Shown here one piece after another: positions 8,577 through 64,000 of a stretch of DNA of 64,000 bases; positions within the stretch are counted from its first letter, which is position 1, and every line of letters starts with the position of its first letter. The stretch spans positions 21,548,033-21,612,032 of the forward strand of contig CM049309.1 in NCBI GenBank assembly GCA_026874595.1, in the 5' to 3' direction. This DNA comes from Sipunculus nudus (taxonomy: Eukaryota; Annelida; Sipuncula; Golfingiida; Sipunculidae). A program made the position numbers and the translations under genes. The notes under the pieces were generated by a model. That model was not told the origin of the DNA and did not search any database. It saw only the letters and a program-made list of their open reading frames with translations.

Positions 8577-8656
8577 TTCTCATTAAAGCTTTTGGGGCGG
8601 AACCGCCAGACTTCAGTTCTCATTAAAGCTTCGGCGGCGGAGCCGTAGCCCGTTTT
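8577..8656. repeat. 40-bp tandem duplication over a stop codon
   Basis: TTCTCATTAAAGCTT occurs at 8577 and again at 8617, with similar GC-rich sequence after each. On the minus strand the upstream unit (8617-8656) supplies the last codons and stop of the fibrinogen-related gene; the other unit lies just 3' of it in the UTR. Confidence 0.75.
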
Positions 8657-11600
8657 TCAACCGTCCCGACAGGTCTGGTTTTAATGACGATTTTACGTAA
8701 TGGCTGTCCAAGCCTCCACGACATGCAGCTCTCGTCTGTCAGGTTCCCGTACAGTCCGGTAGGGTTCGCCCCTTGGCTACTGGGCGAGTGCCACCATCCG
8801 CTTAACATCTTTGTCACATGTTCTCTCCCGGCGGCATCTGGTCTGTCAATGGTACTGAATTCCTCGTCGTCGTAGATTGACATTTCATCTGAGGGAATAC
8901 TACCAGAGAAACCAGACAGGTGCAAGGTATAGCCAGAGTCCTCGTCGCCAACACTGAACTCGGAATAGAGTGTGTCACCGTAATGACGGTTGAAGAAATC
9001 CATCACTTCCACCTTCAGTTGGTGTTTCCCCTTACCAGTCAGCCAGTGAAGCTTATCGTTACCGAGCCAGAATTCACCTTCTAACGACCCAAAGCCTTGC
9101 TTGTAATTATCCCATGTCCTGAGAAAGTTGGTTTCACCGTTGTATCTCCGCATTAACACAGTCCATCCCCCGTCCTTCACATCACAAAGGACTTTAAACG
9201 GCTCGCCGGCACCGTCCGGATTAACGGTGTAAATACCGTTGATCTTTAACCCTCTCTTGTATAAGAGATCACAACCTGTAACACGGGAAACAATAATTTA
9301 TCACAATTATATTTATAATATTTAGTTAAAATATTGTCTTTTACTTTCGCATTAAAACATGAAATGTTAATTCATCAAATTCATACAGTGGAACCCTGCC
9401 TTGCGACCACCCAACAATTACGACCTCTTTGCTTGGTCCCAAATTTTTTTTTAGTTTATTTATGTTTCTCAATTACTCGAATTATGACCACCCCTGAATT
9501 CAGAATAACGACCAGATTTCCTGGCCCCTGCGCTAATGCGACCCCGCTAATGCGACCAAGGCCGAGAAGTACTGAAACAACCTTTGTCATGAGTCAATGG
9601 CTGCGCCTTGTCACAGGCGCCTCAACGAAAGATCAAACGGGTGACAAGGTTTCTCAACCAGAGTGTTAATTCGGTTTCGCAATTCTTCCTGACTCGTTGT
9701 CTGCGTTGAGACTCGTTGTGGCGTAGGTTATAGATCAAAGAGGGTAACCATCGGCCTGATTACTGGTCGGTTCTGGGGTCTTGGGCTATCGATGCTAATT
9801 TCCCCTCAGTGATCACCTGTATAACAGTTACCCTAAGTGCGGGAGTGACAGCTTAATATTTCAACTTACACATACTGTTCGATCATCATTGGTCAAATTA
9901 ACGACATAGTTAATCCTAAATGTGTTCATGCCTTACTCACACTGAGTATTAAGCAGTCAGTTAAATGTATAAATAAAGCTTGCATGGGGGCATATCCAAC
10001 ACATTGTCTTGTCCTATCAGACAGATCGCTCTCAGTTTATTTCTCTACTGGTGCAGTTTGCATTTAAATTGCTTGCTGTTGTGCGACCATGCCTCTATGG
10101 AGCTCTCCTTGAAGGAGAGAATGACGTTAATCAAGGCGGCAACACCAGGACGCAGTCAGCACCAACTGGCTCAGAAGTTAAGCGTCGGTAAAACTCAAGT
10201 GCACCCTATATATACTCAAGGGGAAGGCTAGATATATGACAGCCACGAAATATGTTCAATATGTATTCAGTAGGTTGTCTTCGTATTGCATCTAGTGTAA
10301 TTATGTGTTAATCATCAGTCACTACGTATGTGTACATGTATATTAATTTTTATCATGAATAAATATAAAAAATAATTATGTTTTCTTTTCAGCTTCACAC
10401 AAAGCATTCATAATAAGGGCCAGTAAGTTAAATATTTTGTTATAATTCACATTAAAGATAAGAAATTTAATACACATTAGGCATCAGCGTGTTATATGCG
10501 ACCAAGGTAAGATTTTCACAAATACGACCACCCCCTAATTACGACCACTTTACTCAGTCCCAGGGTGGTCGTAATTGTGGGGTTCCACTGTATTTATAAC
10601 ATTAATTTACAAACTATTTTTTGACAACATCCCATCGATAACTTTCTACATATATTACGTAAACGATAATAAAGTTTACCCGATTTTTTTTATTTTTTTT
10701 TAAATAAAATTAGTCAACTATTGAGATGTGCCTTGTTCCTCCTCGGTCCATCCGTTTACAATTAAGGCTCTAGTCGTTAAAATTAAATTTAGGAATTTCA
10801 AACTTAAAATCAAGGAAGTCCCTGAGCAAATCTTCTTGTTAATTTGCAACTGATTATGCAAAAATGAGGTTACTATGGTCACACTCTCGTGTGAGCATAC
10901 TGAAGATCTATATTTCTTGAGATTCACGGTTGCTGAACAAATATTTTATTCATAAAATTACAATGTACCTTTAAGACTGCCAACATACAAAGTTTGAACA
11001 AAATCGACTCATATCGTTTTTTTTTAAGATATGAAATTGTAAAAAATTGCTCAAATTTGTTCTCCAAATCTTAAAAAAAAATTGTGTTCTGATTCATATA
11101 TTATCACCCCACTTGTTTTGGTAAGGACATTTTAAATTCTGCTGAGCGTCATAACTCGCGGGCCACTCGTCTTATTTTATATAAAAGGAGAGAAGGAATG
11201 ACAACTCTTTAGAAATGAGTAATGACTTTAAAAACCTTAAGGAAATAATTCATTTGGTTAACTGATGCAAAGTTACGTAGAATATGATGTAACAAGTACT
11301 GGGGTTTTACCTTTGATAGATTTCTCTTTCGGTTTGCTTTCCATTACTTTCACGGCTTCGTCGAGCCGTTTGTTTGCAGCGTTCAGAGAATTAACGAGCG
11401 TGGCAAGGTCTTTAAGGTGGGCGTCATTTCTAGTCGCCACCAGTTGGATCTTTGCAGAGGTGTTCCTAGCAAGAGCATCATCATCAAGTTCCCTCACGAT
11501 CTCCTTGATTCGCTCAGCCGCACCGCTGACACGAGGCCTGGCTACAACCTTCAAGCTCTCCTCAGTTTTGGATTTTAAACTTTCAAGTTTTTTAGACAAA

Positions 11601-13319: not shown

Positions 13320-13480
13320 TTAGATACGGAATCGGACTTGGACTCGGGTTCCAGATGACTCGGACTCGGAGAAGGTGGACTTGGACTCAACCTCAAGAAC
13401 TCGGACATGGACGCGAGTGGCCTGGACTCGGACTTGCACTCGGACTCGGATGGTGTGGACTCGACTACATCACTGCATAG
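13320..13480. repeat. Degenerate GGACTC hexamer repeat
   Basis: Repeated CGGACTCGGACTTG-type hexamers directly precede the 23-bp minisatellite. The open frame through it runs into the array and is not supported as coding. Confidence 0.7.
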
Positions 13481-13489
13481 GTCCGCACA

Positions 13490-16400
13490 TGCACGACCAA
13501 AGGGCCCACACAGGGGCGACCAGAGGGCCTACACAGGCACGACCAGAGGGCCGACACAGGCACGACCAGAGGGCCCACACAGGCACGACCAGAGGGCCCA
13601 CACAGGTGCGACCAGAGGGCGCACACGGGCACGACCAGAGGGCCAACACAGGCACGACCAGAGGACCCACACAAGGACGACCAGAGGGCCCACACAGGAA
13701 CGACCAGAGGACCCACACAGGCACGACCAGAGGGCCTACACAGGAACGACCAGAGGGCCCACACGAGCACGACCAGAGGGCCCACACAGGCACGGCCAGA
13801 GGGCCCACACAGGCACGACCAGAGCGTCCACACAGGCACGGCCAGAGGGCACATACAGGCACGACCATAGGGCTCACACGAGTACGACCAGAGGGCCGAC
13901 ACAGGCACGACCAGAGGGCCGACACAGGCACGACCAGAGGCTCCACACAGGCACGACCAGAGGCTCCACACAGGCGCGACCAGAGGGCCAACACAGGCAC
14001 GTCCAGAGGGTCCACATAGGCACGACCAGAGGGTCCAATTAGGCACGACAAGAGGGCCCACACAGGCACGACCAGAGGGCCGACACAGGCGCGACCAGAG
14101 GGTCGACGCAGGCACGACCAGAGGGTCAACACAGGCACGACCAGAGGGCCGACACAGGCGCGACCAGAGGGTCGACGCAGGCACGACCAGAGGGTCAACA
14201 CAGGCACGACCAGAGGGCCGACACAGGCGCGACCAGAGGGTCGACGCAGGCACGACCAGAGGGTCAACACAGGCACGACCAGTGGGTCTACACAGGCATG
14301 AAAAGATGGTCCACACAGACAGGACCAGAGGGTCCACATAGGAACGACCAGAGGGCCCACACGGGCACGACCAGAGGGCCAACACAGGCACGACCAGAGG
14401 GCCCACACAAGGACGACCAGAGGGTCCACACATGCACGACCAGAGGATCAACACAGGCACGACCAGAGGGCCTACACAGGAACGACCAGAGGGCCCACAC
14501 GGGCACGACCAGAGGGCCCACACAGACACGACCAGAGGGTCAACACAGGCACGACCAGTGGGTCCACACAGGCATGAAAAGATGGTCCACACATGCAGGA
14601 CCAGAGGGTCCACATAGGAACGACCAGAGGGCCCACACGGGCACGACAAGAGGGTCAACACAGGAACGACCAGAGGGCCCACACAAGGACGACCAGAGGG
14701 TCCACACATGCACGACCAGAGGGCCTACACAGGAACGACCAGAGGGCCCACACGGGCACGACCAGAGGGTCCACACAGGCAGGACCAGAGGGTCCACATA
14801 GGAACGACCAGAGGGCCCACACGGGCACGACAAGAGGGTCAACACAGGAACGACCAGAGGGCCCACACAAGGACGACCAGAGGGTCCACACAGGCACGAC
14901 CAGAGGGCCTACACAGGAACGACCAGAGGGCCCACACGGGCACGACCAGAGGGTCCACACAGGCACGACCAGAGGGTCCACACAGGAACGACCAGAGGGC
15001 CTACACAGGCACGACCAGAGGGCCCACACGGGCACGACCAGAGGGCCAACACAGGCGCGACCAGAGGGTCGACGCAGGCACGACCAGAGGGTCAAAACAG
15101 GCAGGACCAGTGGGTCTACACAGGCATGAAAAGATGGTCCACACAGGCAGGACCAGAGGGTCCACATAGGAACGACCAGAGGGCCCACACGGGCACGACC
15201 AGAGGGCCAACACAGGCACGACCAGAGGGCCCACACAAGGACGACCAGAGGGTCCACACAGGCACGACCAGAGGATCAACACAGGCACGACCAGAGGGCC
15301 CACACAGACACGACCAGAGGGTCAACACAGGCACGACCAGTGGGTCCACACAGGCATGAAAAGATGGTCCACACAGGCATGACCAGAGGGTTCACATAGG
15401 AACGACCAGAGGGCCCACACGGGCACGACAAGAGGGTCAACACAGGCACGACCAGAGGGCCCACACAAGGACGACCAGAGGGCCCACACAGGAACGACCA
15501 GAGGATCAACACAGGCACGACCAGAGGGCCTACACAGGAACGACCAGAGGGCCCACACGGGCACGACCAGAGGGTCCACTTAGGCACGACCAGAGAGCCG
15601 ACACAGGCACGACCGGAGGGCCGACACAGGCACGACCGGAGGGTCGACGCAGGCACGACCAGAGTTTCAACACAGGCACGACCAGTGGGTCCACACAGGC
15701 ATGAAAAGAGGGTCCACACAGGCACGACCGGAGGGTCCAATTAGGCACGACAAGAGGGCCCACACAGGCACGACCAGAGTGCCGACACAGGCGCGACCAG
15801 AGGGTCGACGCAGGCACGACCAGAGAGTCAACACAGGCACGACCGGTGGGTCCACACAGGCATGAAAAGATGGTCCACACAGGCAGGACCAGAGGGTCCA
15901 CAAAGGAACGACCAGAGGGCCCACACGAGCACGACAAGAGGGTCAACACAGGCACGACCAGAGGGCCTACACAGGAACGACTAGAGGGCCCACACGGGCA
16001 CGACCAGAGGGTCCACACAGGCACGACCGGAGAGCCGACACAGGCACGACCAGAGGGCCGACACAGGCGCGACCAGAGGGTCGACGCAGGCACGACCAGA
16101 GGGTCAAAACAGGCAGGACCAGTGGGTCTACACAGGCATGAAAAGATGGTCCACACAGGCAGGACCAGAGGGTCCACATAGGAACGACCAGAGGGCCCAC
16201 ACGGGCACGACCAGAGGGCCAACACAGGCACGACCAGAGGGCCCACACAAGGACGACCAGAGGGTCCACACATGCACGACCAGAGGATCAACACAGGCAC
16301 GACCAGAGGGCCTACACAGGAACGACCAGAGGGCCCACACGGGCACGACCAGAGGGCCCACACAGACACGACCAGAGGGTCAACACAGGCACGACCAGTG

Positions 16401-19400
16401 GGTCCACACAGGCATGAAAAGATGGTCCACACATGCAGGACCAGAGGGTCCACATAGGAACGACCAGAGGGCCCATACGGGCACGACAAGAGGGTCAACA
16501 CAAGAACGACCAGAGGGCCCACACAAGGACGACCAGAGGGTCCAGACAGGCACGACCAGAGGGCCTACACAGGAACGACCAGAGGGCCGACACGGGCACG
16601 ACCAGAGGGTCCACACAGGCAGGACCAGAGGGTCCACATAGGAACGACCAGAGGGTCCACACAGGCACGACCAGAGGGTCCACACAGGAACGACCAGAGG
16701 GCTTACACAGGCACGACTAGAGGGCCCACACGGGCACGACCAGAGGGCCAACACAGGCGCGACCAGAGGGTCGACGCAGGCACGACCAGAGGGTCAAAAC
16801 AGGCAGGACCAGTGGGTCTACACAGGCATGAAAAGATGGTCCACACAGGCAGGACCAGAGGGTCCACATAGGAACGACCAGAGGGCCCACACGGGCACGA
16901 CCAGAGGGCCAACACAGGCACGACCAGAGGGCCCACACAAGGACGACCAGAGGGTCCACACATGCACGACCAGAGGATCAACACAGGCACGACCAGAGGG
17001 CCCACACGGGCACGACCAGAGGGTCCACACAGGCAGGACCAGAGGGTCCACACAGGAACGACCAGAGGGCCCACACGGGCACGACAAGAGGGTCAACACA
17101 GGAACGACCAGAGGGTCCACATAAGGACGACCAGAGGGTCCACACAGGCACGACCAGAGGGCCTACACAGGAACGACCAGAGGGCCCACACGGGCACGAC
17201 CAGAGGGTCCACACAGGCACGACCAGAGGGTCCACACAGGAACGACCAGAGGGCCCACACGGGCACGACCAGAGGGCCAACACAGGCGCGACCAGAGGGT
17301 CGACGCAGGCACGACCAGAGGGTCAAAACAGGCAGGACCAGTGGGTCTACACAGGCATGAAAAGATGGTCCACACAGGCAGGACCAGAGGGTCCACATTG
17401 GAACGACCAGAGGGCCTACACGGGCACGACCAGAGGGCCAACACAGGCACGACCAGAGGGCCCACACAAGGACGACCAGAGGGTCCACACATGCACGACC
17501 AGAGGATCAACACAGGCACGACCAGAGGGCCTACACAGGAACGACCAGAGGGCCCACACGGGCACGACCAGAGGGCCCACACAGACACGACCAGAGGGTC
17601 AACACAGGCACGACCAGTGGGTCCACACAGGCATGAAAAGATGGTCCACACATGCAGGACCAGAGGGTCCACATAGGAACGACCAGAGGGCCCAAACGGG
17701 CAAGACAAGAGGGTCAACACAAGAACGACCAGAGGGCCCACACAAGGACGACCAGAGGGTCCACACAGGCACGACCAGAGGGCCTACACAGGAACGACCA
17801 GAGGGCCCACACGGCACGACCAGAGGGTCCACACAGGCAGGACCAGAGAGTCCACATAGGAACGACCAGAGGGCCCACACGGGCACGACAAGAGGGTCAA
17901 CACAGGAACGACCAGAGGGCCCACACAAGGACGACCAGAGGGTCCACACAGGCACGACCAGAGGGCCTACATAGGAACGACCAGAGGGCCCACACGGGCA
18001 CGACCAGAGGGTCCACACAGGCACGACCAGAGGGTCCACACAGGAACGACCAGAGGGCCCACACGGGCACGACCAGAGGGCCAACACAGGCGCGACCAGA
18101 GGGTCGACGCAGGCACGACCAGAGGGTCAAAACAGGCAGGACCAGTGGGTCTACACAGGCATGAAAAGATGGTCCACACAGGCAGGACCAGAGGGTCCAC
18201 ATTGGAACGACCAGAGGGCCTACACGGGCACGACCAGAGGGCCAACACAGGCACGACCAGAGGGCCCACACAAGGACGACCAGAGGGTCCACACAGGCAC
18301 GACCAGAGGATCAACACAGGCACGACCAGAGGGCCTACACAGGAACGACCAGAGGGCCCACACGGGCACGACCAGAGGGCCTACACAGGCACGACCAGAG
18401 GGCCCACACGGGCACGACCAGAGGGCCAACACAGGCGCGACCAGAGGGTCGACGCAGGCACGACCAGAGGGTCAAAACAGGCAGGACCAGTGGGTCTACA
18501 CAGGCATGAAAAGATGGTCCACACAGGCAGGACCAGAGGGTCCACATAGGAACGACCAGAGGGCCCACACGGGCACGACCAGAGGGCCAACACAGGCACG
18601 ACCAGAGGGCCCACACAAGGACGACCAGAGGGTCCACACATGCACGACCAGAGGATCAACACAGACACGACCAGAAGGCCTACACAGGAACGACCAGAGG
18701 GCCCACACGGGCACGACAAGAGGGTCAACACAAGAACGACCAGAGGGCCCACACAAGGACGACCAGAGGGTCCACACAGGCACGACCAGAGGGCCTACAC
18801 AGGAACGACCAGAGGGCCCACACGGGCACGACCAGAGGGTCCACACAGGCACGACCAGAGGGTCCACACAGGAACGACCAGAGGGCCCACACGGGCACGA
18901 CCAGAGGGCCAACACAGGCGCGACCAGAGGGTCGACGCAGGCACGACCAGAGGGTCAAAACAGGCAGGACCAGTGGGTCTACACAGGCATGAAAAGATGG
19001 TCCACACAGGCAGGACCAGAGGGTCCACATAGGAACGACCAGAGGGCCCACACGGGCACGACCAGAGGGCCAACACAGGCACGACCAGAGGGCCCACACA
19101 AGGACGACCAGAGGGTCCACACAGGCACGACCAGAGGATCAACACAGGCACGACCAGAGGGCCTACACAGGAACGACCAGAGGGCCCACACGGGCACGAC
19201 CAGAGGGCCCACACAGACACGACCAGAGGGTCAACACAGGCACGACCAGTGGGTCTACACAGGCATGAAAAGATGGTCCACACAGGCATGACCAGAGGGT
19301 CCACATAGGAACGACCAGAGGGCCCACACGGGCACGACAAGAGGGTCAACACAGGCACGACCAGAGGGCCCACACAGGAACGACAAGAGGATCAACACAG

Positions 19401-20765
19401 GCACGACCAGAGGGCCTACACAGGAACGACCAGAGGGCCCACACGGGCACGACCAGAGGGTCCACTTAGGCACGACCAGAGGGCCGACACAGGCACGACC
19501 GGAGGGCCGACACAGGCACGACCGGAGGGTCGACGCAGGCACGACCAGAGTTTCAACACAGGCACGACCAGTGGGTCCACACAGGCATGAAAAGAGGGTT
19601 CACACAGGCACGACCGGAGGGTCCAATTAGGCACGACAAGAGGGTTCACACAGGCACGACCAGAGGGCCGACACAGGCGCGACCAGAGGGTCGACGCAGG
19701 CACGACCAGAGGGTCAACACAGGCACGACCGGTGGGTCCACACAGGCATGAAAAGATGGTCCACACAGGCAGGACCAGAGGGTCCACATAGGAACGACCA
19801 GAGGGCTCACACGAGCACGACAAGAGGGTCAACACAGGCACGACCAGAGGGCCTACACAGGAACGACTAGAGGGCCCACACGGGCACGACCAGAGGGTCC
19901 ACACAGGCACGACCGGAGAGCCGACACAGGCACGACCGGAGGGTCGACGCAGGCACGACCAGAGGGCCCACACAGGCCCGACCAGTGGGTCCACACAGGC
20001 ATGAAAAGAGGGTCCACACAGGAACGACCGGAGGGTCCACTTAGGCACGACCAGAGGGCCGACAAAGGCGCGACCAGAGGGTCGACGCAGGCACGACCAG
20101 AGGGTCAACACAGGCACGACCAGTGGGTCCACACAGGCATGAAAAGAGGGTCCACACAGGCAGGACCAGAGGGTCCACATAGGAACGACCAGAGGGTCCA
20201 CACAGGAACGACCAGAAGGCCCACACAGGCACGACCAGAGGGTCCACACGGGCACGACCAGAGGGCCAACACAGGCACGACCAGAGAGCTTTTGTTACTG
20301 GGCTCTTATCAGGACTGATGAGTGTGGCACGACCAGTGAGTCCACACAGGCATGAAAAGAGGGTCCACACAAGCAGGACCAGAGGGTCCACATAGGAACG
20401 ACCAGAGGGTAAACACAGGCACGACCAGAGGGTATACACAGAAACGACCAGAGGGTCCACACTTGCACGACCAGAGGGTCCACACAGGAACGACCAGAGG
20501 GTCCACACAGGCACTACCAGAGGGTCCACACAGGCACGACCAGAGGGTCCACACAGGAACGACCAGAGGGTCCACACAGGAACGACCAGAGGGTCCACAC
20601 AGGAACGACCAGAGGGTCCACACAGGCACGACCAGAGGGTTCACACAGGAACGACCAGAGGGCCTACACAGGCACGACCAGAGGGCCTACACGGGCACGA
20701 CCAGAGGGCCAACACAGGCACGACCAGAGGGCTTTTGTTCTGGGCTCTTATCGGGACGGATGAGT
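13490..20765. repeat. 23-bp GC-rich minisatellite, ~313 units
   Basis: The basic unit is GGCACGACCAGAGGGYCCACACA (23 bp), written here only as a consensus; variants carry GGAACGACC, AAGGACGACC, GGGCACGACC or GTCGACGCAG. A marker variant (GGCATGAAAAGA) recurs at spacings of 276, 552, 230, 345, 414, 529 and 161 bp, all multiples of 23, with 12-unit blocks repeated (for example 14296-14572, 16136-16412, 17355-17631), showing higher-order amplification. Because 23 is not a multiple of 3, all frames cycle through a 23-residue pattern, producing long open frames on both strands. Near 20288-20330 a piece of the right-hand flank (CTTTTGTTACTGGGCTC) interrupts the array and recurs at the true end near 20731. 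Confidence 0.97.
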
Positions 20766-31579: not shown

Positions 31580-31658
31580 GATCCGGTGATAGTGAAATGA
31601 TAAGTGCGTCCTAGCAGCCGAGAAAACCACGTGACCGGGAGAGGCTGCAGCTACCATC
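31580..31658 (+). promoter_or_regulatory. 5' UTR of the ankyrin-MAGUK gene with a 5-codon uORF
   Basis: The exon begins after TTTTATTGCAG|GATCC. A short upstream frame ATG-ATA-AGT-GCG-TCC-TAG lies at 31596-31613. The main start, ACCATCATGG, has A at -3 and G at +4, a strong context. Reinitiation after the uORF is plausible. Confidence 0.6.
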
Positions 31659-34600
31659 ATGGGGAAGCGGACGCACGGCCCAGCCTTGCTTCAGGCTATC
31701 GAGCGTAACGACCAGAAAAAAGTCCACGAGATCCTGATGTTAGAAATCCGGTCTAAGAAGAAAATACAAGAAATAATTACAACTAGCCTACGACGTCCAG
31801 CGGCAAACAGCACAGCCTGTCCTCTGTTGGTGGCTGCGAGTCTAGATGATCCTACACTTGTCAAATATTTTGTGTCAAAACACAACGTGAACGTGAACTT
31901 TGTTGTACAGGAACACAACGGACGACGGATTAAGCTCACCACAGCTCTCAAAGTAGCAGTGCGGTATGGGCTGCACGCAATGACTGAAGTGCTGTTAGCC
32001 ATGAACGCAGATCCAAATATTTTGGACCATAAAGGGTGCGCCCCTCTTCACTATGCCATCAGACTAGCAGATTATCGTCTTGCAAAAATGTTAATAAGCA
32101 GAGGTGCGCAAACTAATCTATCTGACGAAACTGACAATACACCGCTTCATCTTGCCACAAAATATGGGCACAGTGAATTAGTGAAATTAATGGTCCAATT
32201 CGGTGGAGATCTGTATAAGAAGGGACCTTACGGTGCAATCCCTATTCACATGGCAGCAAAAGAGGGTCACTTAGCCCTTGTCAAGTTGTTCACATACCAA
32301 GATGTTAATATAAACACTAAAGTGCCTTGTTATGACGGAAAAGAGAAGTCATCTTTACATGTTGCGGCAGAAGAGGGCCACGTCGAGACTACTTTGGCTA
32401 TGGTTGAACAGTTCGGAGCAGATGTGAATATTACGGACTCAGAAGGTGAGACGCCTTTACACGCCACTGTAATCCGTGAATACGACCAATATGGAATGAA
32501 GAGTAAAGACGACTACACAGAGACAGCAAAAGTGCTAGTGAAACATGGTGCTAATGTTAATGCTCAGAACCTTCGAGGTGAAACACCACTTCATCTAGCC
32601 GCGCGAAATGAGTTTCAAAAGGTAGTAGAAGTTTTGGTTCAGGCCGGAGCTAACGCGGCAGTGAAAGACAACGATGGGAATACGGCAATGGCGCTTGTTA
32701 GCGAGAACGACACTGTCACTAAACAGCTGCTGAAAGAAGCAATGGAACAATTAGAGAGAAAATTAAGTGACGCTCTTGAAATTGAGGCACGTGGGTTCAG
32801 CACAAACATACAAAATCAAGGTCGCACAAAATCCCACTCAACCATGAGTATAGTATCTGACGGGACTGTGGGCCGGTCATCCAGTACTTCTGGTCTCTTC
32901 ATGGTTAATGGGAGTTCCAGCACACTTAATGCTGCACAGGGAGATGTATATGAGAATGGTTATCTTCAGCCTCTTGGTTCCAGGAACACTCTCACTGATC
33001 AGACCGAGAATCCGAATCCAAATGGCACACCAGCTGGTATGTATGAGACTATTGACGAAAAACTTGACCAAAACAGAAGCTTGAGGAAACGTCGCCTCAG
33101 TAGCGAAATCAGACGGAGTCGCGAACAGATGTTAGAAGGGGATTCCGATTCCACGCAAGGTGAAGAAAAACCTCCTCCTCCAGCTTTTAAAGGCAGACAC
33201 TCCGGCGCTATGGATCTCGAAACAGCTCAGCAGGCCAGGCCCATGAACACATTCACAAATAATCTGCCTGACCATCCGACATCAATGCCAGTCATGAGAA
33301 AGGTTCTTCCTGAACTGAATCAAGCAGTGAAAGGACGGTCTGGAAACTTGGACTTGTCCAGAGACAGTGGTAATACTGGTACATTCAGTTCTACTCCTTA
33401 TTCCAGCAGTGCCCCTGACACAAGTACATCACCGGGCTCAGCAAACGCCAGCTTTGCCCAACGAAACACATACGTACCAACTCCTGCTAACACTACAGTA
33501 CCGAATCAAAGTCGTGGAGTGTATCCTGTGAATCAGCCAATAGTTAATAAACATCTTTTGCATGTCCAACAGACAGAAATTAATGGCGCTATATCAGAAA
33601 GCGATGATACATTTTTCGACGATTCATCCTTTGATACGATGTCTGAGGACTTTTTAGAAGATAATCGGGCACCTGGGCCTGTCATACAGCATATTCAAGA
33701 ACCAACCCCGCAGGTAAAATCTGAAATGGTTCCAATGCGTCTACCAAATCCCCGTGGGGATCCTCGGCTTATGCAAACTTGGTTAGCAGAACAAGCACGT
33801 ATTGTTCATGAAAATGACGACCCGAACGCTCCAGCGATGTTGAATCAAACAAATCTACAGAAACTCCAGGCTGATATCGAAACTGAGAGTATAACTACAA
33901 TGAGTCAAAGTGAAGGAGGTGATTTTGATAGAAGATTCACTATCACATTACAGCCAAGCCAGGGTGGAGAGCAACACGTTACAATAAATACGTCTGAACT
34001 GGCCAAAGCGATCGGAAGGCCCAAAGAAAAACCAAAACCAGCTCCAAAACCTAGAAAATCTAAAAGTAGTACACCTCCGCCAGTAGCACCAGCAGTGCCG
34101 TCACGGCTTACTAAACCATATATGTCGTTTCAAGGAGTTCCAGGAAAACGGCGGGTGGTTCCAAACCCAAACACGAACAACCAAATGAATGATGTCAATG
34201 CTCCTGGAGACAGAAGCAGGAAGCTTTCAGAAGGTGCGCGACCATCTTTTGAAAATGAAAGTGAAACTGACATGAACACTACTGGAAATCAAAGCGCAGG
34301 TTCGCTTCAGTGGGAAAGGTTACCAGCTGAAGATGAGGATTCTTTGTACTGGGAGCATACCAGCACTGAGCAGATATATGAGGCGATTAAAGATCAATCC
34401 CATGATCATTCACAAGCTCAACCTGGAGAAGAAATGTACATGGAAATGCAAAATTCTAGTTCACCCGAACACCAAGTACCGAGCGAAAACCATATGCAGA
34501 AGAGTAATAAGCCAAACCCACAAGATTCTAATAATAATGCTGTCCAAGAACACGGAAAACCCGGAGCTGTGAGAAGCATACAACCTCCGCCATCACCTCG

Positions 34601-37504
34601 TTCACTCGAAAGGAGAAATTCTCGATCAAAACCAGTTGCAATTCCTACTGTTCCTGGCATGGAAGGTCAAGGAAACAAACGAACATCTCTAATGAGCGTG
34701 AATTCAGTTGAAAGTAGAGCTTCTGTCAGTTCACTTAACACGGTCATATACGTTCCAAATGAAGCCGAGAAACAAGTGTCTCCTGCATCCCCAATAGCAC
34801 CAAATACTCCGAGCTATGCTTCCCACCAACAAACACCACAGCAACCGCAAACAGTGCCAGCTAGTCCAGCACAGCATCGACCAGAAACACAGACTCCAAA
34901 TTCACCACTCGTTAGCGTCCAACAAAAACCAAATGAAACTCCAGTTCCGAATTCTGTCTATGAGGAACTACCAGATAGTCCTAAAAAGCAAGTGTCCATC
35001 GGCTCAGAAGAGGTATTCCAAGAATCTCAAGCATTAGCCCCTAACGTGAGACAGATTGAATATGACACCAAGAACAAAATGAGAATTGCCATCGTAGGCG
35101 GCAATGTGGATGGTATTTTTGTCCATAGAGTAGATCCTGGATCGGATGCAGAGATAAAAGGGGTCCGAGAAGGCGATCAGATCCTGCGTGTAAACAATAG
35201 AAGTATGAAGGGGAAGACCAGAGAGGAAGCCCAGCTTTTGTTGATGAGCTTACATGGTAAAATAACACTTTTAGTCGAACAAAAGAAGGACATGTACGAC
35301 CGCACTGTGAGGGGCGGAGGCAGTGGGGATGCCTTTTACGTCAGAGCCATGTTTGATTATGAAGGAGAACGCGACGGCGAACTCAACTTTTCCAAGGGGG
35401 ACATAATGGCTATCAGAGATACGTTTCCTGAAGGCAGGATGGGTTCTTGGCGAGCTACAAAGTTTTATTCATCCTCTAATGAGGAACCCTCTGGGTATAT
35501 TCCAAATAAGGAGCGAGCAGAACAGTACCTGTTAACAAACCAAATGAAAAAGAAGGTACCCGAGAAGGAGCGTGGTGGTATCTTCAGACGAAGCATGCGG
35601 CGATCCAAATCAGCTGATCGCCTGGAGAAAGAAAAAAGAGCGTCAGCGGAAATGATTAAACCGGAAGGCCCATTGTATGAAAGAGTAGATCAGAGGTATC
35701 CCGGCATTCTCCGACCTGTGGTGTTGCTTGGATTGTTCTCCGATGCAGTCCGTAACAAACTCGCCCAAGAATGTGGGTCAAACTATGAATTGCCGCCACC
35801 TGAAGCTGAAGTTCAGATTAACGATTTAGTTGCAGATGTAGAGAAAAAACGGGTGCTTGAGGCTCAGCTGTCGGCGATCAGAAGAGTTGTCAGTCGACGC
35901 AAACACTGCCTACTGATCCTAGGGCCGCAAGGAGTGGACCAGCTTGTAAAGTGGGAGTTGCATCCTATCGTGATATTCCTAGCTGCAGAAAACAAGAACG
36001 TTGTAAAGAATTTGAAAGCAAAACTGGCTCCAGACTTTGACCAGAAAGCTGCGACTCTGTTCGAACAGTCGGCCATGTTTGAGCGTCAAAACTCACATCT
36101 GTTCACAGCTACAGTGCCTTACACCATGGGAGAGTCTTGGTACACTCTCCTGAAAGACACAATAGGTAGAATACAAAATCAACCAGTGTGGGTAAAACTG
36201 AGCCAGGATGAACTGGACGGGGAAGATGATGCTGGCGTAGTCTCTGTTAGAAAAGTGACAACGACCACCAGCACTGGCCAACAGCGGACTGTCAATTATG
36301 TGCAGCTACAGCCAAGGGCTTCTGAGTCTGATGCTGGTCAACAACCAACATCTGGGGAAGACGAGAACAAAGTTGTAATCCATGATCATCCAGACGCAAA
36401 CGATCCAAATACCAGCGACCTGGGTCTGATGCGGCCACGGCATACTCAGAACAACCAGTTTCACAACCAGCAGCAACAGCACATGCCGTACCAAGGACAG
36501 CATATACCTAATAACATTCCTCAAAATACTGGAACGCAGGATCCACACCAACAGGTGAACATTCTCTCATACATGGACTCTCCTAATCAGCCCAGGTCAA
36601 TATTAAAGAATAGAAGTCCAATGGAGGGAAATCAAGGAGGACCATCTCCAGTGCCATCCACTGACTCGTCTGTTATATCCGTCCAACAGCAAATGCAAGG
36701 GCATTACCAGCAGCAACAACAATATCAAAGTCATGGACATTATCAGCAGCAGCAATACCAAATGCACCAGCAGCATGTATATCACGGTCAGGTGCCACCT
36801 CGCATGATGGGACCCCAGCACGTCGGGCACAACCCAAGGATGCCCTATCAGCACCAGGCTCAGATGAAGCAAGCTCCACCTCAGCAGTTACAACAAGGCC
36901 AGCAGATGGCGCCGTATGCTCAGGTGCAGTTTCAGAGAGGACCTCAGTCGGGACAAGTTAGACAGCCAGCCCCACAGCCAGTACACTATGCGTCTGTCAG
37001 AAAACCGAATTCTGTAAGTAACTTATCCGTTACCTGGTACCAGTATCTTATTTTAGGGAGTTCCTTTCAGCTTCTTTGGGAAATGTAATGCATTTCTGGC
37101 CATGCGCATGATGATGTACATTATCACGTTTACAGTATTGCTGTTTGATTTGTTTTTTTTTTTAATTTAGCTTATTCGTGTTCTTGGACAAATGTATACA
37201 CTAAACCTGAAACTAACCAAGTCCCACTTCTTCACGAATGGCAAAAGAAATCCCCGAACCAGTTAAAAATGACCACCATTTTTAATATTAAAGGGATGAT
37301 AGTCGTTTATTCATAATAACTCTTTATATTACATGTTTACATATTGTTTCTTGGCATAGTTATAATCACTGCCAGTCTATATCTTCAGCCTCCATACGTA
37401 ATGATTTCTTCCAGTGACCAATTTCTGTCTTTTTCAAATTATCCATGACAGATATTCTGTATTTTAACGTATGTTTATTGCAGGGCAAGGAAACAAATTT
37501 GTGA
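31659..37504 (+). CDS. Ankyrin-repeat PDZ-SH3-GUK scaffold (ZO-like MAGUK)
   Basis: One coding exon of 5,355 nt (31659-37013) ends at AATTCT|GTAAGT in phase 0; a proposed last exon 37484-37504 after TTATTGCAG adds GKETNL and a stop, giving 1,791 aa. Residues ~50-350 hold about eight ankyrin repeats (NTPLHLATKYGHSELVKLM, ETPLHLAARNEFQKVVEVL). Residues ~350-1125 are a Ser/Pro/Gln-rich linker with an acidic patch (~644-669) and a KPKPAPKPRKSK-PPP stretch (~790-815). Then PDZ ~1130-1210 (IVGGNVDGIFV, GDQILRVNN), SH3 ~1224-1292 (AMFDYEG, GSWRATKF, GYIPNKERAEQ), and guanylate-kinase-like ~1339-1513 whose P-loop is replaced by GLFSDAVRNKL, so it is probably a binding fold. The tail is Gln/His-rich. 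PDZ-SH3-GUK wording is closest to ZO proteins, which link junction membrane proteins to actin. Ankyrin repeats are not part of vertebrate ZO. If not spliced, the C-terminus is at 37088 instead. Confidence 0.88.
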
Positions 37505-41409: not shown

Positions 41410-41608
41410 TGACATCTCGACGTCATGTCACCATGGGTACAACGTGGCCATCACGTGACGTCAAAGACGTTCAAGTCTACGATGTCGTTTGGTGACGTCA
41501 TAAACGTACCTAGCTACCTTTGGATACGTGTTTGTTTGGAGGAGCAGAAAAGTTTTCTTACTCTCTTTACAAGTTGTGCCTGTGATTACTCAGCAAATTT
41601 TCATCAGA
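41410..41608 (+). promoter_or_regulatory. CRE-rich region before kinase gene copy 1
   Basis: Two perfect palindromic cAMP-response elements TGACGTCA lie at 41456-41463 and 41493-41500, with a CGACGTCA half-match near 41419. A TATA-like TATATAAG lies near 41336. Upstream ATGs at 41425 (87-codon frame overlapping the main start) and 41433 (strong context, 20 codons) would repress translation if transcribed. All of this recurs in copy 2. Confidence 0.5.
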
Positions 41609-44600
41609 ATGATCGTAACATTCCTCGGAATCTGTCAAGTGTTTATCTTGGCTTTAGGACGGACCTTTCAGGAAACCAAAGAAGATGACAGTAGCAGTTT
41701 TCTGCCAGCGGTTTTACAAGAAGATAAGTTGTTCAAGTCCACTGATGCTTGTCCCGCTGCAAGCTTATGCCGTCTAGCTTTGACCTCCCCTACAGGCTGC
41801 AGTGGACCCAAAGACCACGGTAAGAGTTCATGGCCAGCCTCAGCACCCGCCATCATCCCTGAATACCATGATGCAGTTGTTGGCTCGGAGAAGTTACCGG
41901 AAGGAAACGCCCCCAGCTTAAAAGCCTCAGCCGCCGTGAGTTGTTACTCGAGCAGTGGAAGCGAGTCTTCTCTGGCGGTTGCGGAGGTGCTAACTGGCGG
42001 GTCCATTAGTTCTGGGATCTCAGTGGTCTCCAGCTGCATATTTGATGGCAGCTGGGCTGGCTCAGCGGACTCTGTCCATGGTCCCAAAGGTCTGCCCAGC
42101 CTGGGAGGTTTGGGTCTCTGCCTTGACAGCAACAGCACAGCTGGTTCGAGCATCAGAGAACCGGACGACGATATCATCCAAAGGCTTCTGAACAATGGGA
42201 TAGAAGACGTTATACTGCAGACAGATGAATACGGCACTCCTTGTCGTCTAGGGGGCGGGGCATACGGCCAGGTCTTCCGGGTAAGTTTTTATTTATTGAA
42301 ACATTACATATATCAATTGTAGGTGACCTGACGCAACATGGCATTACTCACATTTATTTTTCCTTATAAATCAAGTTTGGTGCATGTTGTCTTAATGTTT
42401 ATGTTTATCTTATAAAACAAATACGCATATTAATGAAAGCCTGCAGTAAGCTCCACGCAGGAGCAAGAAAACTAAGGACAGACCATCAGTAATGTAGCCA
42501 GTTTTAGGCAGGTCACCTATATTGCTCTTTTACGATAAATTTTGTACATTTGATGAGCTCTGTCATAAACTGCGACTAAATAAATACCACGATGACAACA
42601 CGGAAGGAATTCTTTCAGTTAACTCAAAATGCGTAAAAAATATACTATCGGAACCAGGACACTGTACATCGTAATTAAATATTATATCATTTATATAATA
42701 TAATATTATTTATTTAATTATATTATGTTATAATTTGCTTGATATCATATTATCATATTATTTATATTATATAATGTTATGTTATATTATATTATAATAA
42801 TTTTCCAGGGTTCGTACCGAGGTGCCTTGGCGGCGGTCAAGGTTAAGACCAAACTCGATGAAGAGGTCAACATTTATCAGGCACTAATGACGTCATCCTC
42901 TCCTGAAAGATTCGTCAGGTAGGTGATTTTAACAATAATCCTTTCAATAATTATTACTCCATGACTATTCTGTCAGCAGTATTATAAATACATGTACATA
43001 ACTGACTGCCATATGCAATTTTATTGTTGAATTTCAACAAATGGTTGCTGTATAATGCACTTCTAGAATATTTATACCATCCATTCTTACATTATCCATT
43101 CTTGAAAAACAAAAAAAGTTTGAGAAAGTAAGAATAACACTTTGTGAAGGGTTGTTAATATGTGAACCAATAACATTATAAAAGCGTTTTTCAAACAATT
43201 ACTGCATTAAATTGGTTTCATTTCAGTCTGTATCACTCTGTGATAGTGAGGGATGGCGAGATAATGGCAATGGAACTTTGCGCGTGCAACATACGGGACC
43301 TTGTTACCAAAAGGTAACATTCAAATCACGTTCACATAAAAAAGTGTGTGTGGAGTTGACTCTTTGACATTTTGGAGCTATAATAACCACTGCATTCACT
43401 ATACTAACACACACATTAATGTACACCACATACCAATACAGTATTTAGACAATAATGATTAGCATTACTGAACTATATGTTCATGAATGTTTGTAGGGTA
43501 ACATGTTCATTATTCATTATGTTACTAGATGTTTGTAGGGGTTACACGTTCGTTATTCATTATGTTACTGGATGTTTGTAGGGGTTACACGTTCATTATT
43601 CATGTTACTGGATGTTTGTAGGGGTAACATGTTCATTATTCATTATACATGTGTTATTGGACGTTTGTAGGGGTAACATGTTCATTATTCATTATGTTAT
43701 TGTATGTTTGAAGGGGTAACATGTTCATTTTTCATTATGTTATTAAACGTTTGGAGATATAGAACAAGAATACACAGAAAAAGTCGGATCACCCCGTATG
43801 GGGTTATTAAACGTTTGTAGGGTAACATGTTCATTATTCATTTTGTTATTGAATGTTTGTAGGGGTACTCCGGGACTTCCAGACAAGGTGATCCGTTACG
43901 TGTCCCTCCAGATGCTGACGGCCTTTCATTGCCTTCAACAAGTCAGGATTATCCACTTAGACATCAAACCGGACAACTTTCTGCTGACTCAGCAGGGACA
44001 AGTTAAATTGGTATGTGTGTTTATTCCGGTAATGTAGTCATTGTAAATTATCTTACTTCTCTCTTTATTCTGGTAAACTCTGACTCTAGAATAAATAAGA
44101 ATAAGTCCAACAGCCGATGGATCATTTTATATTTAATCCAGACAATAATTAAGAACAATACAGTAGTTATAGTTTCAAGCATGTTCTTCTGCAATAACAT
44201 TGAATTTCAGTACAGTAATGATTAGTATAGATAAAACAAAATAAAAACATGTTACAAGCTGTAACCATTGGTAAACTTTCTTCTACAAGGCTCTCTGTAA
44301 CCATCCTTGCGTGACCCACTATAACCTTTTTTTCGCTTTAAAACTCTCCACGAAACCTGCTATATCTACAAATCTTTGTAATCATATTTTATAGATCACA
44401 CTGTATATGGTTCGTTTGTTTGCAGTGTGACTTTGGTGTTAGTCGCCAGATGGATGGTGAAATAACCGAGACTGACTTGGGCGGGACATCTCCCGGAACA
44501 GAGGGATACAAAGCCCCCGAGGTAATACGTGGTGGCAAGATCGGCTTCGAGGCTGACCTCTTTAGCCTGGGGGTTACCATGTACGAGATGTACACGGCCA

Positions 44601-46767
44601 AGTTAGTGTCGTATATAATAATACCTCCGCCCGTCGGCGAGCTTTTGTGTTTTCATTATGGTTATCATGTTTTTTTTGTTAGCAATTTCACTGTGAAAAG
44701 TTACGAACAGATTTCAATGACTTTTGCTTAAGGGTTGTGTTAAAACCAACAAACAATCCATTACATTATGGAGGTGATATGAATCATCACAATATGTTTT
44801 TAACTTAAAGGATTCTATAACTTTGAGAAATTTCTATATCCTGGCCAAAGGCCAGAGCCATTGATATGAACTAAAAGGGCCGCCTTTGTTCTAAAGAACT
44901 CAGCCGTGATCCAGGTTTGGAGTGACACAGATATTTTTGTGTAACACATACTTAATTTTTATTAGGATCCTGGCGGATGTATATATGGAGTCTTAAACTA
45001 CTTTTCTAATTCGTTTGTTTCCCTTTTAATTGATGTAAGTATAAATCTTAATACACCTTAAAATTCACGTGACACACAAATGTTTAGCTACAAACATCCA
45101 ACTAAAGCGTTACATTTGATAAATATTGTACTGTTTTGTATTTCAGGTTGCCGTGGCCACGTGCAAATGACTTTTGCGTTCTGGAAACCTTAGAGACGGT
45201 TGGTGTTAAGTACCCAGACACGGTACCGGGGGATGCTCAGAACCTCTTGACTCAGACACTTGTGTGAGTAGCTCCCTGATACATTGAGTTACTCATCATG
45301 TGACCATGTACTGGTTTACTTTAGCCCCTCTCTGATCTTAGCCTTAATATTTGTCTGCATATGCTGTCTCCATTAACAATTGGAATTCAATTTAGTATAA
45401 GCTCCTTAATTTCTTAACTCATTTTCTACTTCACACTGACTTTATATTGTAGGTTTCAATTTCATTCCCCCCTGAGTAATGTATGCCTCACCATATCCCA
45501 ATAATAAATCTGTAAAATATATTCATTTTACACTAATATTTTCACTGTATATCTACCTACTTTTACTGCTATACCAATCGTTTTCGTTTCTATTTTCTTT
45601 CATGTATATCGCCCTGTTTATCAGCATGTTTTTCTTGTATATATCTTACTATCACTGACTACTTTATATCTTCGTAACTGCGGACTGCAATCCTGTATAA
45701 CTCTACTTCTCTGCATTCTACTGTATCTCATCTCTTCAGTCTTGATCCTCTGTCCCGTCTACGAATCCAGAATTCTCCAGACTCCTACTTGAAGCATGAG
45801 TAAGTTTACTTTCTCCATTGTTACCGTTTCACTGAGTAAAACTCTTCTTCATTTTCAAAATAGTTTTTATTCTTAGACTAGCTGTAGATGTTAACGACAA
45901 TTACTGTCATGAAGAATATTTCAATGTTGATTTGATATCGGCTGCTATAGCTTTACATTTAAGTTCAATAAATAAACTTTTAGATTATGTTCAGTCTGCA
46001 CAGATACTGTTATAGCGTGTGTGTTTCTTATTTTAAAGCATTGAGATCGTATGAGCGTAATATATAAAATAAAATAGTGTTATATATAAAAAAAATTGTT
46101 CTGGAATCAAATACTATTATGCTACAATTTGTTATTATACCGATGTTAATTACAGTTTTTCAGTGTAGTTAAATATAGGTTTGTATAATGTACAATAAAT
46201 AGCGAAATAAAAAATGTATTCAGGTATATACAGGCATATGCTAAAGCGACCTCTGTCATTGTTTGCAGGTATTTCAGTACAGCGATGGAAGGAAGAGATC
46301 CGAGCTTGCCATCGGATGATATCATGGTAAGTTCACACGATATGACGTCATTTTCCAAAACCTACTGTTTGATGGCGCGGGTTTAGGTATTGTTTTCATT
46401 AAGTGTACTCAGGGTCAACCAGGTTACATCTCGCTAGGATGTGAAACTACGTGCATTTTGACCTAATCTCCTTTGCAGATATGTTACTTCTAAGTTCACA
46501 TAACACTATTTTTGGATTATCATATTCCTTTATCTACAGTGAAGCACAGTTATGTTATTAATAACCTGAATTGAAACTTCCGTTTTTTTCAGTTAAAACT
46601 AAGTATAATCAACCCCTTCCGTTTGTACTGTTAAGCATATTTAGACGTCAAGAATACATCAGCCGTTTGGGGCTTTTAGTCAGCTGATATTTGTGCAGTT
46701 TGATTGATATGGTGTATCCTTATATTTTCAGGTGTTCCTGATGGAGACCGCCACCTTGTGCCACTGA
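41609..46767 (+). CDS. Ser/Thr protein kinase with putative signal peptide, copy 1
   Basis: Nine exons: 41609-42280, 42809-42918, 43227-43313, 43863-44010, 44426-44601, 45147-45263, 45740-45799, 46269-46326, 46732-46767. All joins are GT-AG and keep frame, giving 487 aa. The start is the first in-frame ATG, in MIVTFLGICQVFILALG, a signal-peptide-like segment; the next ~190 residues are Ser/Gly-rich and unrecognised. Kinase core: LGGGAYGQVF (~214-223), Lys235 in AAVKVK, HLDIKPDNFL with Asp323, Lys325 and Asn328, DFG 341-343, APE 369-371. All key residues are present, so it is probably active, phosphorylating Ser/Thr (the HxDxKPxN loop fits). HLD replaces HRD, as in MLCK-like kinases. Substrate and family unknown; a secreted or Golgi location is inference. 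AATAAA follows at 46791. Confidence 0.88.
43480..43862 (+). repeat. ~45-bp minisatellite ending in a functional splice acceptor
   Basis: About eight units of GTTTGTAGGGGTAACATGTT followed by CATTATTCATTATGTTATTG lie in kinase intron 3. The last unit, TGTTTGTAG|GGGTACTCC, is the exon 4 acceptor, so most earlier units carry the same TTTGTAG|GGG decoy. One unit is split by a ~50-bp insertion near 43753-43800. Confidence 0.85.
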
Positions 46768-61413: not shown

Positions 61414-61612
61414 TGACATCTTGACGTCATGTCGCCATGGGTACAACGAGGCCATCACGTGACGTCAAAGACGTTCAAGTCTACGATGTCGTTTGGTGAC
61501 GTCATAAACGTACCTAGCTACCTTTGGATACGTGTTTGTTTGGAGGAGCAGAAAAGTTTTCTTACTCTCTTTGCAAGTTGTGCCTGTGATTACTCTGCAA
61601 ATTTCCATCAGA
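61414..61612 (+). promoter_or_regulatory. CRE-rich region before kinase gene copy 2
   Basis: TGACGTCA at 61460-61467 and 61497-61504, with TTGACGTCAT near 61421, at the same spacing as in copy 1. The upstream ATG frames at 61429 and 61437 are also kept. Confidence 0.5.
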
Positions 61613-63985
61613 ATGATCGTAACGTTCCTCGGAATCTGTCAAGTGTTTATCTTGGCTTTAGGACGGACCTTTCAGGAAACCAAAGAAAATGACAGTAGCA
61701 GTTTTCTGCCAGCGGTTTTACAAGAAGATAAGTTGTTCAAGTCCACTGATGCTCGTCCCGCTGCAAGCCTATGCCGTCCAGCTTTGACCTCCCCTACAGG
61801 CTGCAGTGGACCCAAAGACCACGGGAAGAGTACATGGCCAGCCTCAGCACCCGTCATCATCCCTGAATACCATGATGCAGTTGTTGGCTCGGAGAAGTTA
61901 CCGGAAGGAAACGCCCTCAGCTTAAAAGCCTCAGCCGCCGTGAGTTGTTACTCGAGCAGTGGGAGCGAGTCTTCTTTGGCGGTTGCGGAGGTGCTAACTG
62001 GCGGGTCCTCCAGTTCAGGGATCTCGGTGGCCTCCAGCTGCATATTTGATGGCAGCTGGGCTGGCTCAGCGGACTCTGTCCATGGTACCAAAGGTCTGCC
62101 CAGCCTGGGAGGTTTGGGTCTCTGCCTTGACAGCAACAGCACAGCTGGATCGGGCATCAGGGAACCGGACGACGATGTGATCAAAAGGCTACTGAACAAT
62201 GGGATAGAAGACGTTATACTGCAGACAGATGAATACGGCACTCCTTATCGTCTAGGGGGCGGGGCATACGGCCAGGTCTACCGGGTAAGTTTTTATTTAT
62301 TAAAACATTACATATATCAATTTGGTAAAATGTAATATATAGGTGACCTGACGCAACATGGCATTACTCATATTTATTTTTCCCTATGCATCAAGTTTGG
62401 TGCATCTTGTCTTAATGTTTATGTTTATCTTATAAAAAAAATACGCATATTTATGGAAGTATGCAGTAAGCTCCCCGCAGGAGCAAGAAAATTAAGGACA
62501 GACTATAAGTAAGGTTGCCAGTTCTAGGCATGTCACCTCTATTGCTCTTTTACGATCAATTTTGTACTTTTGATGAGCTCTGTCATATAGGCCGACTAAA
62601 AAAAAATACCACGATAACAACAAAGAAGGAATTCTTTCAGTTAACTCAAAATGCGTAAAAAAATATACTGTCTAAACCAGTACACTGTACATCGTAATTA
62701 AAAATTGTATCATTTATATAATATAATATTATTTATTTATATTATTTAATATTATATTATGTTATAATTTGCTTGATATGATATTGTATTTTATATTATA
62801 TTTTAAGAGTATATTATATTATATTCCCAGGGTTCGTACCGAGGTGCCTTGGCGGCGGTCAAGGTTAAGACCAAACTTGATGAAGAGGTCAACATTTATC
62901 AGGCACTAATGACGTCATCTTCTTCTGAAAGATTCGTCAGGTAAGTGATCTCTAATATCATTTTAACAATAATCCTTTCAATAATTATTACTCCATGACT
63001 AATCCGTCATTGGTATTATAAATACATAATTGACTGTCACGTGACATTTTATTCTTGAATTTCAACATATAGTGGATGTGTAATGTACTTCTGCAATAAT
63101 AATACCATCAATATGACGTTACATAATCCAATCTTGAAAAAAAAAAAAACAATTTTTGGAAAAGTAAGAATAGCACTTTGTGAGGGGTTGTTTATGTATG
63201 AGCCGATAAAAATATATGAGAGAGTTTTTCAACATTAAGTCCATTAAATTGGTTTCATTTCAGTCTGTATCACTCTGTGATAGTGAGGGATGGCGAGATA
63301 ATGGCAATGGAACTTTGCGCGTGCAACATACGGGAACTTGTAACCAAAAGGTAACATTCAAATCATGTTTGCATAAAAAAAGTGTGTGTAAGAGAGTATT
63401 TGTTTTTAATCTTCACCATATGTACTATATGGAACAATTTTGATGGAGTTGACTGTTTGTCAGATTTGATCTATAACATTCACTGCATTCACTATACTAA
63501 CACACACATTAATGTACAGTACATATCCATGCATACAATAATAAGACAATAAAGATTAGCATTACTGAAACTTAAATCAAAACGATTTTTTCATGAATGT
63601 TTGTATGGGTAATATTTTCATTATGTTCATTATTATTATGTTAATGAATATTTTAAGGGTAACATCTTTATTATGTTCATTATTTATTATGTTATTGAAT
63701 GTTTGTAGAGTTAACATGTTCATTATTCATTATGTTATTGAATGTTTGAAGGGGTAACATGTTCATTTTTCATTATAATATTAAACGTTTGTAGGGGTAA
63801 CATGTTCATTATTTATTATGTTATTGAATGTTTGTAGGGGTACCCCGGGACTTCCAGACAAGGTGATCCGTTATCTGTCCCTCCAGATGCTGACGGCCTT
63901 TCATTGTCTTCAACAAGTCAGGATAATCCACTTAGACATCAAACCGGACAATTTTCTGCTGACTCAGCAGGGACAAGTTAAATTG
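61613..63985 (+). CDS. Ser/Thr protein kinase, copy 2 (5' part, continues past window)
   Basis: Exons 61613-62284, 62831-62940, 63264-63350 and 63838-63985 have the same lengths (672, 110, 87, 148 nt), phases and splice sites as copy 1, encoding residues 1-339; DFG and later exons lie beyond the window. The signal-peptide-like start MIVTFLGICQVFILALG, LGGGAYGQVY, AAVKVK and HLDIKPDNFL are intact and there is no stop or frameshift. By eye, exon 1 differs from copy 1 in 14 replacement codons (including CR to RP-type changes in the Ser-rich region and VF to VY in the glycine loop) and about 10 silent ones. This suggests a recent paralogue under moderate constraint, probably functional. Confidence 0.85.
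63590..63837 (+). repeat. Intron 3 minisatellite of kinase copy 2
   Basis: Same GTTTGTAGGGGTAACATGTT-type units as in copy 1, but fewer (about six) and without the ~50-bp interruption. Again the last unit provides the exon 4 acceptor TTTGTAG|GGGTACCCC. Confidence 0.85.
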
Positions 63986-64000
63986 GTATGTTTGTTTATT

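Follow-up and report, generated by a model that had tools for sequence, protein, structure and literature searches.

An ankyrin-repeat module in one reading frame with a ZO-type PDZ-SH3-GUK core: a predicted gene of Sipunculus nudus

Relation to described scaffold proteins

At animal cell junctions the ZO proteins act as central scaffolds, with a domain order that surveys regard as well conserved. ZO-1, ZO-2, ZO-3 and Drosophila Polychaetoid share a PDZ3-SH3-GUK core that is preceded by PDZ1-PDZ2. A stretch of 64,000 nucleotides of the Sipunculus nudus genome (C4:21548033-21612032, contig CM049309.1, hereafter the window; the genome has 1.43 Gb in 153 contigs) carries a predicted gene, termed here the ankyrin-ZO chimera, in which a core of the same type and order is found and ankyrin repeats occupy the place of PDZ1-PDZ2. 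The chimera also differs from ZO proteins by the lack of ZU5, an altered PDZ loop, a core without introns and a tail without detected relatives. The ZU5 domain is itself variable, being placed near the C-terminus in ZO-1 and not in ZO-2 or ZO-3 in the consulted portion of PMC6928914.

The nearest known scaffold combining ankyrin repeats, PDZ and SH3 is SHANK, whose ankyrin repeats are likewise N-terminal. Its SH3 precedes the PDZ in animals and it has a SAM domain according to an excerpt of PMC2824662, whereas in the chimera the PDZ comes before SH3, a GUK is present and the SHANK arrangement is not found; the distinction is one of description, not of sequence comparison. CARMA (CARD-MAGUK) and DLG5 carry a MAGUK core with an added domain, CARD being named or mentioned for them in a part of PMC2859873. 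The chimera adds ankyrin repeats instead, and its Pfam search gave no match to CARD or SAM up to E 1. The list of ten MAGUK classes in that part of PMC2859873 describes none with ankyrin repeats, and the word "ankyrin" does not occur in the main text of either PMC2859873 or PMC1978500 (word search; figures and supplements lie outside its scope). This agrees with the initial annotation of the locus, made from the sequence alone, which held that known MAGUK types have no N-terminal ankyrin repeats. Literature searches, mostly at listing level, surfaced no combination of ankyrin repeats with a ZO core.

Organization of the predicted gene

The chimera lies on the plus strand in a frame that is open from stop to stop over 1,817 codons (31635-37088). 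Following the in-frame stop on its 5' side, ATG first occurs at 31659, and the coding stretch 31659-37013 is unbroken over 1,785 codons, to which a predicted short last exon is added. Shuffling the bases of the coding exon 200 times gave open frames of at most 171 residues across the three forward frames. The main exon (31580-37013, 5,434 bp), predicted from its acceptor, its donor and the open frame, would hold a short 5' untranslated region and nearly all of the coding sequence. Its consensus acceptor TTTTATTGCAG lies directly 5' of 31580, ending at 31579, and its consensus donor GTAAGT is at 37014, both read from the sequence. The exon phase is compatible with an acceptor before 37484, and the predicted splice would join ...RKPNS to GKETNL and a stop in a last coding exon at 37484-37504, position 37504 being also the end given by the initial annotation. 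The predicted protein has 1,791 residues and ends in ...SGKETNL. Its terminal ETNL resembles a class I PDZ ligand.

The predicted protein is formed by about eight ankyrin repeats and a disordered linker of ~720 residues, followed by the PDZ-SH3-GUK core and by a tail rich in Q. The ankyrin module, with cap-like ends, spans residues 1-401 (31659-32861) and is defined by Pfam (ankyrin families, best E 3.7e-40; seven stretches of PF00023) and by homology to two frames of contig C13 described below. Reading of the alignment gives about eight complete repeats, the number originally proposed. In phmmer searches of PDB sequences this half matches ankyrins and designed repeats generally, and the ten NCBIfam families matched by the chimera, mostly ankyrin-bearing, are all far below cut-off. 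The Ser/Pro/Gln-rich linker (residues 402-1124, 32862-35030), whose disorder is predicted from composition, and the tail (36198-37013), with 21% Gln over residues 1517-1785, contain no Pfam domain.

The core (residues 1125-1513, 35031-36197) has PDZ, SH3 and GUK in the order of a MAGUK core, as recognised by Pfam and PDB matches. The Pfam stretches of PDZ (35079-35279, PF00595, E 5.8e-12) and of the guanylate-kinase-like domain (35862-36119, PF00625, E 2.4e-06; C4:21583894-21584157 in the genome) are above cut-off, and homology to ZO runs on to 36197. The SH3 (35337-35522) is slightly below cut-off in both PF00018 (E 3.8e-04) and PF07653 (E 6.5e-04), and its region aligns to the SH3 of human ZO-1. 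Pfam identifies a single PDZ in the chimera, not the three of the ZO class, and finds no ZU5 match in the frame. Structure prediction without an alignment was uninterpretable for the core (mean predicted local distance difference test score, pLDDT, 32); for the ankyrin part it gave paired helices at pLDDT 53, too weak for argument.

The linker that joins the two halves was analysed in 450-bp windows for GC content, three-base periodicity and stops per frame, taking the linker from residue 381; these windows end before the final 405 exon bases (36609-37013). The six windows of the linker (32760-35040) have a GC content of 0.42-0.49 and a period-3 signal of 3.1-7.2, with zero stops in the coding frame and between 4 and 16 in every other one. 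In eight flanking windows that lie outside the exon GC is 0.32-0.35 and period-3 0.4-1.7; a ninth, which overlaps the exon, reaches 2.4. One window of the core (35259-35708) has a period-3 signal as low as 1.4, which the highest flanking window exceeds. On composition and period-3 signal the linker is read as coding exon. The continuity from ankyrin repeats to PDZ-SH3-GUK that the initial annotation had described is thus confirmed by the stop-free codons and by the Pfam and PDB matches. The chimera is most likely a single intact protein-coding gene, as judged from its DNA, with splicing and expression inferred.

The core is of ZO type

Residues 1125-1513 match the PDZ3-SH3-GUK of human ZO-1 with E 1.1e-67 in a phmmer search of PDB sequences. 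With the core alone as query the scores are 236 bits for ZO-1, 115 for ZO-3 (an SH3-GUK construct), 81 for DLG4 and 69.5 for MPP5; CARMA and CASK are not among the best 60 PDB matches, and no direct comparison with them was made. By sequence, the core is of the ZO class, its closest MAGUK relatives among PDB sequences, which bears out the ZO-like wording noticed at first. A search of a viral contig collection gave no relatives, and three bacterial matches in a prokaryote contig collection, all limited to query residues 2-60 in the PDZ part, are uninformative.

The S. nudus genome also codes for a canonical ZO, and the two cores differ considerably. Of 376 aligned positions the chimera shares 148 (39.4%) with the same-genome ZO; its identity to human ZO-1 is 37.6% (142 of 378), and the same-genome ZO and human ZO-1 share 173 of 379 (45.6%). 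The PDZ is nearer to the same-genome protein (49% versus 39% to human), with which it has a two-residue gap and the motif MKGKTREEA in common. There is almost no preference between the two in GUK and SH3, and the hinge is closer to human ZO-1. At sites where same-genome and human ZO differ, the chimera agrees with the former at 47, with the latter at 40 and with neither at 115. The PDZ loop (residues 1140-1143) reads KMRI in the chimera, GVGI in the same-genome ZO and SVGL in human ZO-1, in an ungapped part of the alignment. A tree of five sequences and 368 columns, with DLG4 in pieces, places the chimera core beside the same-genome ZO with 68% bootstrap and on a branch of 1.16 substitutions per site. 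On these alignments the chimera is most likely a diverged paralogue of ZO whose age is uncertain.

The canonical ZO gene and the introns of the core

The comparison with the canonical three-PDZ gene that the initial annotation had proposed is provided by a separate ZO gene of several exons, apparently complete, which lies at about C4:22.040-22.092 Mb. It is found on the same chromosome and strand as the chimera, ~0.45 Mb downstream: 454 kb separate the chimera stop from its presumed PDZ1 and 482 kb from its PDZ3. Support is good for PDZ3, SH3, GUK and ZU5, the last with E 8.1e-18 close to C4:22091340. The evidence is weaker for PDZ2, in two pieces that are each under the Pfam cut-off, and for PDZ1, recognised by eye from C4:22039909 in two non-significant blast pieces.

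The core of the canonical gene is recognised in ten pieces, of which six have tblastn E <=0.004, two have E 0.20 and 1.1 and two were identified by eye; all ten have splice-like edges. It follows that the one-exon core of the chimera lacks no fewer than five of the introns, and probably nine. The loss of parental introns that is expected of a retrocopy is found for the ZO core only. A profile search of the genome with PF00625 gave 24 matches. In nine of them the domain is complete and its frame measures 273 or 334 residues. Among the 15 partial matches, 14 lie in frames of 42-132 residues and only that of the chimera has a long frame (1,817 codons).

The ankyrin half and its relatives

The search of the genome with the ankyrin module gave at least 180 matches, and 108 of 605 candidates were scored. 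Among the matches listed, only two besides the chimera span nearly the whole module, both on contig C13. The match at C13:68629281 covers chimera residues 4-401 with 40-43% identity (E 2.9e-95) and that at C13:27303887 covers residues 10-359 with 37-38% identity (E 7.9e-70). The gene at C13:68.63 Mb is a single frame of 3,070 codons (3,029 from the ATG) in which ankyrin repeats are followed by low-complexity sequence; at C13:27.30 Mb there is an ankyrin-only frame of 446 residues, counting this frame alone, with further exons possible. A likely acceptor precedes the ATG in all three genes, by 24-31 bases in the C13 pair and by 79 in the chimera.

The gene at C13:68.63 Mb resembles the chimera in its ankyrin repeats within one frame, in the acceptor near the ATG and in a long low-complexity region. 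It differs from it in having no PDZ, SH3 or GUK in the core search or in Pfam searches of its first 1,289 codons and of a 503-codon open stretch that follows its frame. This stretch has a weak match to the death domain (PF00531, E 0.0022), below cut-off, and PDB matches of E 0.16 and worse. Homology of the chimera linker and tail to this gene was considered and rejected: with the low-complexity filter nothing is significant past the ankyrin module, and stretches found without it (E 1e-8 to 1e-5) were taken as shared Q/P-rich composition. Note that C13:68629257-68640105 holds a probable coding exon of ~9.1 kb with a repetitive Q/G/M/P-rich stretch after the N-terminal ankyrin repeats. Docking of SH2 domains through Yxx[ILVM] motifs was dropped for the disordered parts of the chimera (7 of 24 tyrosines versus 3.9 expected, p 0.085) and is unsupported for the C13 giant-exon gene (7 of 47 versus 7.1 expected).

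The single ankyrin exon is probably a trait of this family that is older than the fusion, to judge from the frames compared. Since the two ankyrin relatives also carry their whole ankyrin region in one frame behind a likely acceptor, intron loss or retroposition is required for the ZO half only. The suggestion of the initial annotation that one exon points to retroposition may therefore stand for the ZO half, whose core introns are gone, and not for the ankyrin half.

Origin and putative function

The reading that we favour, at somewhat better than even chance, is that of an intact ankyrin-ZO chimera that arose from an intron-less ZO cassette and a gene of the ankyrin family and that acts as a cortex or junction scaffold. 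The fusion would have linked, in one frame, an intron-less PDZ3-SH3-GUK cassette of ZO and a gene of the small ankyrin family whose ankyrin exon was already single. The core would dock at sites of ZO partners, chiefly via GUK and SH3 because the PDZ loop is altered, while the ankyrin repeats would stand in for PDZ1-PDZ2 and bring different cargo, with the long disordered linker keeping the two ends apart. The C-terminal ETNL may bind the PDZ of another scaffold, possibly the canonical ZO. The splicing, expression, localisation and partners of the chimera, and the order of events, are inferred. Work on ZO-2 is consistent with docking of such a core, as its PDZ3-SH3-GuK without PDZ1-2 is recruited to JAM-C contacts in the consulted part of PMC13253849, and the chimera keeps the corresponding unit. 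According to an excerpt of PMC6928914, ZO-1 binds occludin through its GUK region, and by analogy this surface could still serve in the chimera.

Several points weigh against this proposal. In the same part of PMC13253849, SH3-GuK alone is not recruited, a ZO-2 with a mutated PDZ3 GLGF motif is recruited less and is not pulled down by JAM-C, and mutation of both PDZ2 and PDZ3 almost abolishes recruitment. The PDZ carboxylate loop of the chimera is without its glycine, which makes docking through the tails of membrane proteins doubtful; with the altered loop and no PDZ2, docking of the JAM type is doubtful and may be lost altogether. The chimera is also without ZU5. In the tree, none of three topologies is rejected (approximately unbiased test, p 0.69, 0.38 and 0.07), which together with the bootstrap of only 68% leaves the age of the chimera open. 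Finally, a random retrocopy would not be expected to lie ~0.45 Mb from its parent gene, a position that fits local duplication followed by loss of introns at least equally well.

The integrity of the gene could be questioned in two ways. The window might harbour two genes, or yield two transcripts, in a common frame, one for an ankyrin protein and one for a ZO retrocopy without introns, with the two never on the same transcript: each half has its own independent relatives, and the halves are joined by the reading frame alone, as known from DNA. The absence of any stop over 1,785 codons, a coding signal in each of the six windows of the linker and the absence of N from the window make this very unlikely. 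A decaying or non-functional gene would account for the lost loop glycine, for an SH3 under and a GUK barely over the Pfam cut-off and for the long branch in the tree; yet the frame is intact despite divergence of the core to 39% identity, and decay over such a time should show stops, so that this explanation is hardly credible.

Two further alternatives leave the gene intact and bear on its history. The ZO half might have been made by local duplication of ZO followed by loss of the core introns, for instance through recombination with cDNA, and not by insertion of a retrocopy. Parent and chimera lie ~0.45 Mb apart on the same strand of a 1.43-Gb genome, a closeness expected by chance in ~0.06% (a post hoc estimate), but every recognised core intron is gone (five strong, nine with the weak pieces) and no remnant of PDZ1-2 or ZU5 is found in the chimera; this route is possible, though we would not expect it. 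The rival that concerns novelty only has a prospect not far short of even: the architecture would be real but old, widespread in a large animal group and present in databases under a generic name. The core is nearly as distant from the same-genome ZO (39.4%) as from human ZO-1 (37.6%) and its long branch suits an ancient duplication, while the literature searches, mostly at listing level, point to no such case and two MAGUK surveys do not use the word "ankyrin" in their main text.

Neighbouring sequences and other loci

The window has a 7.25-kb minisatellite at 13480-20731, formed by ~315 copies of a 23-bp unit with 63% GC and an AT skew of ~0.74, A far exceeding T on the plus strand. A gene is present twice, at 41504-44731 and 61508-64000, with open stretches of 272 and 275 residues that are near-identical by eye and match nothing in Pfam; the first copy is followed at 43747-44728 by matches to protein kinases (E 1.2e-07 and 1.1e-11). 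A fibrinogen C-terminal domain is coded on the minus strand at 8626-9297 (E 3.3e-42) and a reverse transcriptase fragment is found at 807-1559 (RVT_1, E 9.4e-20).

Elsewhere in the assembly, contigs C61, C62, C72, C74, C77, C82, C83 and C89 code for eight guanylate kinases of similar score, each in one frame of 334 residues. All of these contigs except C82 also have several intron-less ankyrin matches among the matches listed. This set could be of symbiont, virus-like or extra-chromosomal origin. The profile of molluscan haemocyanin (PF14830), used as a lineage marker, had no match in a search in which no control gave a signal, and is uninformative on lineage.

Significance for the MAGUK family

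The chimera may tentatively be regarded as the first example of an additional MAGUK class, "ANK-ZO", of which it would be the type member, although we consider this less probable than not: an ankyrin family would have captured an intron-less ZO cassette and kept it for a very long time near ZO, as a second scaffold of the cell cortex in its lineage, with an ankyrin cargo end and a PDZ that no longer reads C-terminal tails in the ordinary manner. The parent gene and the donor family are both present in the genome, and the locus shows how the fusion of an intron-less cassette with another gene may give rise to a new scaffold. A canonical ZO that coexists with a split-off PDZ3-SH3-GUK half bearing an ankyrin head would be a natural experiment on the functions of the two halves of ZO.

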